A stretch of 64,000 bases of DNA from NCBI GenBank assembly GCA_017454905.1, contig JAFTCB010000054.1, positions 31,828 to 95,827 of the forward strand, written 5' to 3'. Position numbers and translations under genes: made by a program. The stretch is from Bacteroidales bacterium. Its GTDB lineage: Bacteria > Bacteroidota > Bacteroidia > Bacteroidales > UBA932. Below the pieces are notes generated by a model. It was not told the DNA's origin. It searched no databases and saw nothing but the letters and a program-made list of their open reading frames with translations. This document shows positions 6,863 to 41,947 of the stretch, one piece after another (position 1 is the first letter of the stretch; each line of letters begins with the position of its first letter).

Positions 6863-7604
6863 CATCCTGCCTGAAGAGATAGAGAAAATGCCGCTGGGAT
6901 CGTTCCCCGGCCAGATTTGTGTCATAGACAAGATGGGATTGGAGTTTGTCAGGGCGGTTGCTTACCTGCGAACCCAGAAAATCATCGGATTCGATACGGA
7001 GACCCGGCCGGTCTTTTCGCCGGGCCAGCACCACAACCATGTGGCCCTGCTGCAGTTGTCCGGCCCGCGGAAGGCTTTCCTGTTCCGGGTAGGCCTGGTC
7101 GGGATGCCGAAACTGCTGTGCAATCTGATGGCCAATCCGCGCATCCTCAAGGTCGGCGCTGCCGTCCACGATGATGTGCGCGGGTTGCAGTATTACCAGG
7201 AATTCAAGGCCCAGGGCTTCGTGGACCTCCAGAAGATCGCCTTCGAATGGGGCATCCGCGACAAGAGCGTGAAGAAGATGGCGGCCAACATCCTGGGCGT
7301 ACGGATCTCCAAGTCGCAGCAGCTTTCCAACTGGGAGGCGGAAGAACTGTCGGCCGGGCAGCAGATGTATGCCGCGACGGATGCCTGGGTCTGCCGGGAG
7401 ATGTATCTCAAACTGCTCCAGTGCGAGAAGCATCCGCTGACGCCGGAGCAGTTGAATCCGCCGCAGCCGCAGCCCCAGCCGGTGAAAGAGGCGGCTCCGG
7501 CCCCTGCCGTCGAGGAAGAAGTGAAACCGAAGCCGAAGCGGCGGCGCCGCCACCGCAAGCCGAAGGCCAAGAAGGTGCAGGAGGCACCCGCAGACAATGG
7601 TTAA
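6849..7604 (+). CDS. RNase D-like 3'-5' exonuclease
   Basis: 251 residues with the three DEDD-type motifs: GFDTETRP (Exo I), VGAAVHDDVRGLQYY (Exo II) and YAATDAWVCREMY (Exo III, DEDDy type). This is the single-domain 3'-5' exonuclease group that trims RNA or DNA 3' ends with two metal ions; no HRDC domain is present, so it is not classic RNase D. After residue 200 comes a Pro/Gln-rich linker and a very basic tail (KPKPKRRRRHRKPKAKK), likely a nucleic-acid contact. It overlaps its neighbours on both sides (14 and 8 bases). Confidence 0.88.
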   Translation: MFKISILPEEIEKMPLGSFPGQICVIDKMGLEFVRAVAYLRTQKIIGFDTETRPVFSPGQHHNHVALLQLSGPRKAFLFRVGLVGMPKLLCNLMANPRILKVGAAVHDDVRGLQYYQEFKAQGFVDLQKIAFEWGIRDKSVKKMAANILGVRISKSQQLSNWEAEELSAGQQMYAATDAWVCREMYLKLLQCEKHPLTPEQLNPPQPQPQPVKEAAPAPAVEEEVKPKPKRRRRHRKPKAKKVQEAPADNG

Positions 7605-9093
7605 GGTCTATCTGAAGCCGGGCCGCGACGAGTCGTTGCGCCGCTTCCATCCCTGGGTGTTCAGCGGGGCCGTGGCCCAGGTGCAGGGCTCTCCCGCCGA
7701 GGGCGACATCGTCGGAGTCTACAGCGCCGAGGGGCAGTATCTCGCCTCCGGCCACTGGCAGATCGGATCGATCGCCGTCCGCATCCTCTCCTTCGACGCC
7801 GACCCCACCGCCCCCGAATTCTGGGAAATCTCCATCCGCCGCGCCCTCGCCGTCCGCGAGGCGACGGGATTGTACCAGGTCAGCGGAGTTTCAGAGCCGG
7901 TCGGCGAACTGTCTCTGAAAACGTCCGGCTGCGCCGGACCCCTCCCATCTGACGATGGGCCCCTCCCTCTTACGATGCCGAGGGTGGCACGCTTTTCTGA
8001 GGCAGTTGCCGACCCGGCTGATTCTGAAACTCCGCTGACGACCTGTTTCCGCCTGGTCCACGGCGAAGGCGACGGTCTCCCGGGACTGATCATCGACTGG
8101 TACGACGGCGTCTGCGTCATGCAGGCCCACTCCGTCGGCATGTTCCGCGCCAAGGCGCAGATCTGCGAAGCCCTCCGGGCCGTCTTCGGCGAACGCCTCA
8201 AGGCTGTCTACGACAAAAGTTCCGGCACGGCCCCCTTCAAAGCCGGCCTGGACCTGGTGGACGGCTACCTCTGGCGCGCCCCGGACTTCACCGCCTCCGA
8301 AACCGTCGTCTGTGAAAACGGCCGCAGGTTCCTGGTCAACTGGGAAGAAGGCCAGAAAACCGGCTTCTTCCTCGACCAGCGCGACAACCGCGCCCTCGTC
8401 GGCAAATACGCCGCCGGCCGCCGCGTGCTCAACCTCTTCTGCTACACCGGCGGCTTCAGCATCTACGCCCTCACCTCCGGCGCCGTCTGCGTCGACTCCG
8501 TCGACTCCTCCGCCAAAGCCATGTCACTGGTAGAACGCAACATCCAGTTGAATTCCGGCGGAGCGGAGACGGCAGTCCCCTTGCAGGACCGTGCCACCCT
8601 CGGCACCGTAAGAGGGGGGACCGCAAGCGAAGCGCAGCGGTGGGGTCCGACGAAGGAGGACGTCCGGCAAGGAGAGCTGCCGCGCAGCGAAGAACGAGCG
8701 GAATTCAACGGCGGTGCGGCTGAATTCAACAACTACTGCGAAGACGCCATCGAATTCCTGCGGAAGACCCCGGAAGGCAAATACGACCTGATCATCGTCG
8801 ACCCGCCGGCATTCGCCAAACACCGCGGCGCCCTGAAAAACGCCCTCCGCGCCTACCAGCGCCTCAACGCCGCCGCCATCGCCAAAGTGGCGCCCGGCGG
8901 CCTCGTATTCACCTTCAGCTGCTCCCAGGTCGTCGACAAGATCACCTTCGCCAACACGGTCTTCTCCGCCGCCGCCCAGACCGGCCGCGGCGTCCGGATC
9001 CTCGACCGCCTCTGCCAGGGCGCCGACCACCCGGTCAGCATCTACCACCCCGAAGGCGAATACCTCAAAGGCCTGCTGCTCTACGTCGAATAA
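7597..9093 (+). CDS. RlmI-like 23S rRNA (cytosine-5) methyltransferase with two repeat-derived insertions
   Basis: 498 residues against about 390 for the family. The N-terminal PUA-type domain (about residues 1-75) is followed by a class I SAM methyltransferase domain: VLNLFCYTGGFSIYAL (motif I), IIVDPPAFAKH (motif IV) and FTFSCSQVV. The excess of about 108 residues is accounted for by two insertions of about 54 codons: residues 95-148, just before FRLVHGEGDGLPGLIIDWY, and residues 318-371, between NIQLN and YCEDAIEFL. Both are palindromic repeat elements of family B (7879-8039, 8548-8708) and both keep the frame. Removing them restores family length. Whether the enzyme is still active cannot be told; all core motifs remain. 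Confidence 0.88.
   Translation: MVKVYLKPGRDESLRRFHPWVFSGAVAQVQGSPAEGDIVGVYSAEGQYLASGHWQIGSIAVRILSFDADPTAPEFWEISIRRALAVREATGLYQVSGVSEPVGELSLKTSGCAGPLPSDDGPLPLTMPRVARFSEAVADPADSETPLTTCFRLVHGEGDGLPGLIIDWYDGVCVMQAHSVGMFRAKAQICEALRAVFGERLKAVYDKSSGTAPFKAGLDLVDGYLWRAPDFTASETVVCENGRRFLVNWEEGQKTGFFLDQRDNRALVGKYAAGRRVLNLFCYTGGFSIYALTSGAVCVDSVDSSAKAMSLVERNIQLNSGGAETAVPLQDRATLGTVRGGTASEAQRWGPTKEDVRQGELPRSEERAEFNGGAAEFNNYCEDAIEFLRKTPEGKYDLIIVDPPAFAKHRGALKNALRAYQRLNAAAIAKVAPGGLVFTFSCSQVVDKITFANTVFSAAAQTGRGVRILDRLCQGADHPVSIYHPEGEYLKGLLLYVE
7879..8039 (-). repeat. Composite palindromic element, family B copy 1, in frame inside the methyltransferase gene
   Basis: Perfect 17-bp terminal inverted arms GTCAGCGGAGTTTCAGA (7879-7895) and its complement at 8023-8039, continued imperfectly inward. 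On the minus strand the core starts GCCACCCTCGGC at 7988, then TAAGAGGGAGGGGCCC, then two small hairpins (CCCATC/GATGGG and GTCCGGC/GCCGGAC). The core order is the same as at 41848-41911. It is 161 bp and, with one more base, exactly 54 codons without a stop. Confidence 0.85.
8548..8708 (+). repeat. Composite palindromic element, family B copy 2, in frame inside the methyltransferase gene
   Basis: Outer arms TTGAATTCCG (8548-8557) and CGGAATTCAA (8699-8708), inner arms CGGCAG..CCTTGC..GGAC and GTCC..GCAAGG..CTGCCG. The core from 8593 reads GCCACCCTCGGC, then TAAGAGGGGGG, then hairpins ACCGC/GCGGT and GTCC/GGAC. Core orientation is plus, opposite to copy 1, yet both are read through without stops. 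A nearby direct repeat GAATTCAAC (8701-8709 and 8722-8730) lies on its right flank. Confidence 0.8.
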
Positions 9094-41804: not shown

Positions 41805-41817
41805 CTTGTTGATCTTG

Positions 41818-41937
41818 CCGTATGCCGCAGGCTGTCAGAAAGCTGCAGCCACCCTCGGCTCCATAAGAGGGAGGGGCCCACGGCTTGCCGTGGGAGAGGT
41901 CGCGAAGCGACGGTTTCTGACAGCCTGCGGCATACGG
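41818..41937 (+). repeat. Composite palindromic element, family B copy 3, intergenic
   Basis: Perfect 24-bp terminal inverted arms at 41818-41841 and 41914-41937 (outer ends CCGTATGCCGCAGG and complement). The core 41848-41911 reads GCCACCCTCGGC, TAAGAGGGAGGGGCCC, then hairpins CCCACGGC/GCCGTGGG and GTCGC/GCGAC. This core matches base for base in order with the copies inside the methyltransferase gene, while the arms are different at each place. Nearly the whole 143-bp space between the two nucleoside hydrolase genes is this element. Confidence 0.88.
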
Positions 41938-41947
41938 CGGAAAACTG

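Follow-up and report, generated by a model that had tools for sequence, protein, structure and literature searches.

Within the 64,000-nt stretch of DNA from an uncultured gut Bacteroidales bacterium analysed here (the window), a gene for an RlmI-like 23S rRNA (cytosine-C5) methyltransferase, with the Pfam domains PUA_3 and Methyltrans_SAM, contains two palindromic elements in frame (Table 1). Matches of its product to NCBIfam models of RlmI type, which span 383–396 positions, were broken into 2–3 separate stretches. A 58-nt inverted match (74%) is common to the two elements, so that their cores are oppositely oriented, and an open frame runs through each element on both strands. The original prediction, made from these letters without database searches, was of two stop-free palindromic inserts in frame in one RlmI-like gene, their common core being oppositely oriented; the ORF, the arms, the core and the existence of empty relatives confirm it. 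Its limits for element 1 stood, whereas arm alignment places element 2 at 8547–8709 instead of 8548–8708; likewise there are indeed two blocks, but the expected excess of about 108 codons in blocks of about 54 becomes a net gain of ~48 codons at site 1 (relative to the empty site of locus L171) and ~51 at site 2 (relative to that of L133).

Table 1. The RlmI-like gene, its two elements with their parts, and a third copy of the element in the window.
Feature	Position	Strand	Remarks
RlmI-like 23S rRNA (cytosine-C5) methyltransferase gene	7597..9093	+	498 codons; hosts both elements
Element 1	7879..8039	- (core on minus strand)	Outer arms 7879-7904 and 8014-8039, 85% complementary
Predicted pseudoknot part, core 1	7965..7990	-	GTGCC-A-CCCTC-GGCATCGTAA-GAGGG (minus-strand reading); family covariation
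Element 2	8547..8709	+ (core on plus strand)	Outer arms; limits from arm alignment
Predicted pseudoknot part, core 2	8591..8616	+	Sequence; family covariation
Left arm of element 2, native gene sequence	8547..8568	+	Aligns with empty site of L133
Inverted copies of native left-arm start, element 2	8698..8730	+	11 nt ending 8709; 9 nt 8722-8730
Third window copy (locus L027)	41817..41938	+	Outside long ORFs; arms 25/25 paired

Judged by comparison with relatives, both blocks are insertions. The gene was present in 57/61 genomes of the genus; among the matches listed, that of the own genome alone bridged both blocks, that of genome G057 bridged the second, and the rest fell into pieces. Both sites were empty in 22/27 parsed gene rows, from a survey of 30 loci of which 7 gave no successful parse, so that the orthologue comparison proposed at the outset did find empty sites in most parsed relatives; seven of eight insert-free orthologues are 395–397 residues long, the eighth (L160) being 409 residues with an N-terminal extension. 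The inserted segments did not appear as conserved protein sequence in distant RlmI orthologues. Site 1 carries an insert in the window gene, L053 and L133, but not in L092 or L171. Site 2 is filled in the window gene and in L092 and L171 (where the cores are oriented opposite to the window copy), is empty in L133, and in L053 holds a different insert with no recognisable core. At the empty site 1 of L171 (G057) lies a small palindrome, CCAGGCGTCGCCTGG, possibly the footprint of a lost element; a longer nested palindrome occurs within the central hairpin of L053, L062, L133 and L158.

If the blocks were ordinary species-specific loops, palindromic by chance, one would expect length to vary at both sites within the family, as it does, and alignment to E. 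coli YccW (3c0k) to break at the insert sites, which do coincide with such breaks between conserved blocks. Against this stand an identical core at many unrelated loci and arm pairing far above control (see below); the dispersed copies already refute the loop explanation, to which we attach practically no probability.

BLAST of the own genome with the two elements gave 8 and 13 matches, self-matches and fragments included, with matches elsewhere down to E 2e-28 for element 1 and 2e-33 for element 2; reading the places of these matches indicates about a dozen element copies. Among named genomes the exact core occurs in at least 118 stretches, and 79 of 80 listed titles are Bacteroidales, Bacteroidia or Rikenellaceae, many from ruminants. 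Within the family it was present in 20/299 genomes and 2/25 genera, at up to 28 per genome, the reversed control giving 0. A relaxed core was found in 81/300 genus genomes, compared with 2 for the reversed control, where single matches may include chance ones (for example, G033). One dinucleotide variant of the core dominates several genomes (13/13 listed in G304, 8/9 in G338), others being mixed, and such dominance is as expected after recent bursts. The exact core gave 0 matches in IMG/VR. The core thus has genomic copies beyond rlmI, and the suggestion that the elements are mobile is backed by dispersed copies, empty sites and genome-specific variants; a description of this core in Bacteroidota, of which the original prediction knew none, was not found in open-licence PMC literature either.

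Several individual copies may be recorded here. The trmB gene of the own genome (L002/L012, C42:245638-246338) carries two elements at once, as does rlmI, and a locus of another genome, L068, looks orthologous to the third window copy, with flanks 78–88% identical. Variant cores in the own genome (L019, 1440-1640, and G000:C34:17673-17700; ATCC/GGAT stem and CCCAT/ATGGG stem) hint at older subfamilies. The one remaining listed title, L127, is labelled Lachnospiraceae, has poor arms and is probably misbinned.

From sequence comparison the core is predicted to be an H-type pseudoknot, with two crossing, covarying stems, accompanied by two hairpins. It has a stem xGCC/GGCx′ and a loop, CCCTC, that pairs with GAGGG across a CGTAA linker (P2); a variable central hairpin and then a third hairpin follow downstream, and a closing stem surrounds the core. 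For the whole core structure the covariation score was 0.375, compared with 0.120 for shuffled and at most 0.078 for slid controls, in an alignment (A1) of 56 of the 67 non-redundant copies, 11 whose central parts were long or unusual having been dropped by eye. The outer pair of P1 was AU in 23, UA in 20 and GC in 10 of the 55 rows with letters there, in an alignment biased by a search pattern that had fixed P2 and GCC/GGC. Since that first pattern had fixed P2, the search was repeated with P2 free in the query: 30 of ~150 listed rows departed from CCCTC/GAGGG, and these comprised 24 fully paired in five other forms (CCCAT/ATGGG, CCCGC/GCGGG, CCCGT/ACGGG, CCCAC/GTGGG and TCCAT/ATGGA), 3 with a wobble and 3 with a mismatch, one of the last being a likely chance match. 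A sister core at the FAD-protein site (L213, L216, L219), GTGTCC-ACCCCC-GGACAC-GGGCA-GGGGG, has, as read by eye, the same layout in other letters (GTGTCC/GGACAC, CCCCC/GGGGG). No Rfam family reached its gathering score over the window, and under permissive settings 4 matches appeared in 7850-8750, all far below gathering scores.

Such a core would fold as single-stranded RNA or DNA. Mismatches of G.T versus A.C type numbered 35/35 in outer arms, 34/19 in inner arms, 53/2 in central hairpins and 0/4 in third hairpins; the central excess lies mostly at one position (19/55 distinct hairpins), and is for that reason taken only as a hint of RNA-level selection on the core. This weak wobble evidence for RNA counts against a retro-element, in which a reverse transcriptase, or a polymerase switching to RNA, would copy core RNA as DNA. 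Such a route would explain a conserved structure with a covarying pseudoknot and the absence of orientation preference, and RVT_1 matches were found in 8/11 element-bearing genomes compared with 3/11 element-free ones; genomes G333, G332 and G015, however, have cores but no RVT_1 match, and we think a retro-element unlikely.

The arms are locus-specific yet mutually pairing. Of 131 core matches, 120 were kept as unique and with flank long enough; comparison of left with right of the core gave a median of 27 identities/pairs and a median local score of 40 for own arms, against a median score of 16 when arms were exchanged (left of one copy versus right of another). By eye, inner arm parts are common to the copies of the own genome and outer parts are not. 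Pairing also persists through change: among 393 aligned arm pairs of orthologous inserts, 21 had changed doubly with Watson-Crick pairing kept (~3.7 expected if changes were independent), alongside 66 single changes and 12 double changes without pairing, these counts coming from 15 related, non-independent comparisons to which homogenisation and selection for pairing possibly both contribute.

Few close empty sites were examined for target duplication, and an inverted host copy was seen at two only, the RibF site of L070 and RlmI site 2. At the RibF site, which is empty in L162, the left arm of L070 aligns with the native gene and its right arm is an exact 21-nt inverted copy of the native left arm, overwriting native letters that are still kept in the sister L125, which has the same insertion. 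At RlmI site 2 of the window the left arm is native, by comparison with empty L133, and the right side holds inverted copies of 11 and 9 nt: the former scores 22, the best of 300 random draws being 19, while the latter scores 18, within the random range and alone not above chance. Outer arms of the TrmB copies L104/L138 could not be traced to native neighbours. L155, considered as a clean inverted host copy, was rejected because both its arms overlap native ends of two convergent genes, as orthologues L226-L236 show.

Locus-specific arms bear also on transposase-driven movement of MITE or REP-like kind, in which a Y1 transposase (RAYT) or another would move hairpin single-stranded DNA and the arms would be diverged terminal repeats. 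The element is palindromic and short, as this would have it, and Y1_Tnp matches occurred in 16/22 genomes tested, more often in element-bearing (10/11) than element-free (6/11) ones. However, outer arms are not common to the copies of one genome, and no direct target duplication was seen at those few empty sites that were inspected. Many copies are located within ORFs, and neither a Y1_Tnp nor an RVT_1 match occurs in G333, a genome with 28 exact cores. This reading is improbable in our estimate; as movers, Y1_Tnp and RVT_1 were both set aside, their association with the elements being weak and contradicted by G333.

Both core orientations are present among relatives at five common sites, namely TrmB, MiaA, RlmI sites 1 and 2, and the FAD-protein site. 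The last was filled in 10 and empty in 12 of the 22 loci parsed out of 25, and the filled loci comprised 7 with this core and 3 with the sister core. In L061/L202, at the same site, the insert has roughly double the length and apparently contains two opposite cores. Opposite orientations at one site could stem from repeated insertion as well as from template switching that flips the core; L161 and L098 have arm sequence in common and opposite cores, which favours flipping there.

Inverted copies of native arms, together with both core orientations, fit template switching between inverted repeats. Polymerase template switching of this kind is described in yeast coding genes, where it homogenises arms, inverts spacers and in one case lengthened the arms of a repeat from 5 bp to 16 bp (PMC8604942); PMC7202029 and PMC8794818 deal with quasipalindrome template-switch mutation in E. 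coli and with hairpin creation through template switching. We regard as probable a short mobile element with a pseudoknot core that survives in frame, its arms shaped and its core flipped by template switching, a cause that would fit by analogy with these systems. The element would be a mobile unit of rumen-type Bacteroidales, mostly ~110–200 bp long with its arms, present in genes and spacers. During insertion or later, template switching in replication from one inverted arm to the other would make the arms match, would lengthen them outward by copying adjacent host sequence in inverted form, and would flip the core. Within genes, stop-free in-frame insertions in permissive loops would survive, and the host protein would carry ~40–60 extra residues.

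A more radical variant, possible though doubtful, would dispense with a transposase altogether: a stalled fork would take up the structured core as RNA or single strand, and snap-back copying would build the arms from the host gene. Each insertion would then hold its own target in inverted copy, and the surrounding gene bodies would be subject to continuous rewriting.

The in-frame character of the insertions is not confined to rlmI. Under an ORF rule that asked for an open frame of 200 codons or more and a copy lying 30 or more codons within it, 80/117 copies were intragenic (L001 fell outside owing to a longer antisense frame); most of a bacterial genome is coding, so a preference for genes over spacers is not claimed. 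The longest frame lies on the wrong strand for L070_4215 and L125 at least (Pfam finds RibF on the opposite strand in L125, as does similarity in L070), and orientation is therefore quoted from the Pfam-confirmed set, in which 19/32 host ORFs are antisense to the core. Open frames numbered 3.5 in the in-ORF copies compared with 2.6 in dinucleotide shuffles, and 3.0 compared with 2.2 in the remaining copies. The suggestion that the elements are selected to be readable thus holds insofar as open frames modestly exceed shuffles, but the same excess is found outside ORFs, and survival of readable insertions suffices to explain it. The search pattern itself closes the TAA frame in every one of the 80 in-ORF copies, and since these were selected for an open frame their tally cannot test translation.

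A frame comparison that required no ORF was available at the FAD-protein site, where two flanking motifs were sought on one strand near the site: they were in the same frame in 22/22 loci, including 10/10 filled ones, which partly share ancestry. Only 7 cases from a wider tblastn comparison could be used: the frame was kept in 4, and the other 3 (L052, L065, L121) were flagged as split. We think the splits spurious, that of L052 arising from a wrong-strand query and those of L065 and L121 looking like low-similarity matches. In rlmI, dN/dS was 0.04–0.14 outside the inserts (window gene versus L171, L092, L133 and L053) and 0.5–1.05 inside them, where alignments are uncertain and dS partly saturated; low values outside and higher ones inside indicate continued selection on RlmI, in which the insert is most likely filler.

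The proposal that the insert is removed from mRNA, by self-splicing, or skipped in translation, leaving a normal protein, gained no support. A conserved RNA-like fold in the core and poor conservation of the insert as protein are what it would predict; the frame kept in the filled FAD orthologues points the other way, as do the antisense host ORFs, given which no sense-RNA excision signal could serve all, and by eye no clear conserved gene was split out of frame among the 37 copies outside the ORF rule. The evidence thus leans against excision or bypass, which we think very unlikely, and the inserts are probably translated in the cell.

Pfam assigned families to 33 of 50 host ORFs submitted, mostly one per similarity cluster, and 32 of these are credible, the NAD-GH match of L080 being presumably a spurious antisense match. 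Ten of the 33 are RNA-modification families (Methyltransf_4/TrmB, IPPT, two SpoU, RsmB/F, TruB, QueH, PseudoU_synth_1, PseudoU_synth_2 and tRNA_Me_trans), with RlmI in addition; RNase R and MetRS are further hosts. RNA-modification genes make up perhaps 2–3% of a genome, against which the host genes seem rich in such enzymes. For intragenic REPs and the Rickettsia element RPE-1 a similar bias to nucleic-acid enzymes is reported, genes for tRNA pseudouridine synthases being among those named; the intragenic REP copies that are reported often lie in such enzymes, tRNA synthetases included, and RPE-1 is inserted even in truB (PMC3733652).

The closest known kind of element is the Rickettsia palindromic element (RPE), and the original likening to it is supported as an analogy. 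RPEs are described, as here, as dispersed palindromic repeats of ~150 bp, in frame in many unrelated genes (PMC10969869, PMC3733652), and a short palindromic repeat in frame in protein genes is what is seen in RlmI and in the 10/10 filled FAD orthologues. The Bacteroidales element belongs to another phylum, and in this comparison, made with RPEs by description only, a covarying pseudoknot, locus-specific inverted arms and two orientations per site are stated for the Bacteroidales element only. REPs and the GTAG- and CGTC-tagged palindromes with RAYT are likewise palindromic, but REPs are described as 20–40 bp long and mostly intergenic (PMC3733652), whereas the present element is longer, is often inside ORFs (80/117 copies in long open frames, rather than mainly extragenic) and has no consistent RAYT. 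MITEs resemble it in being short and non-autonomous, with inverted ends and possible in-frame fusions (PMC10969869); unlike them it has no common terminal repeat at its outer ends (own arms 40, exchanged 16), and a search for Y1_Tnp and RVT_1 found no parent IS. Quasipalindrome template switching likewise homogenises arms and inverts spacers within coding genes (PMC8604942); here the arms are homogenised within the genome and the spacer is inverted at fixed sites, for which repeated insertion would also account. The yeast quasipalindromes, however, have spacers of 2–5 bp between native repeats (PMC8604942), whereas the spacer here is a mobile element of ~60–110 nt. What is new is the family itself, its predicted pseudoknot core, the locus-specific arms, the two core orientations and the recurrent sites.

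Most of what is known of palindromic elements in protein genes comes from Rickettsia, with scattered REP cases besides. The gut Bacteroidales family is large and patchy. It offers numerous sites both filled and empty, variants in core orientation and changes in the arms, and comparison of these makes the spread and persistence of in-gene elements testable. Some outer arms resemble inverted copies of the host gene; these link a mobile element to a known DNA-copying error and, if template switching does shape them, the element would be a seed for the rewriting of coding sequence.
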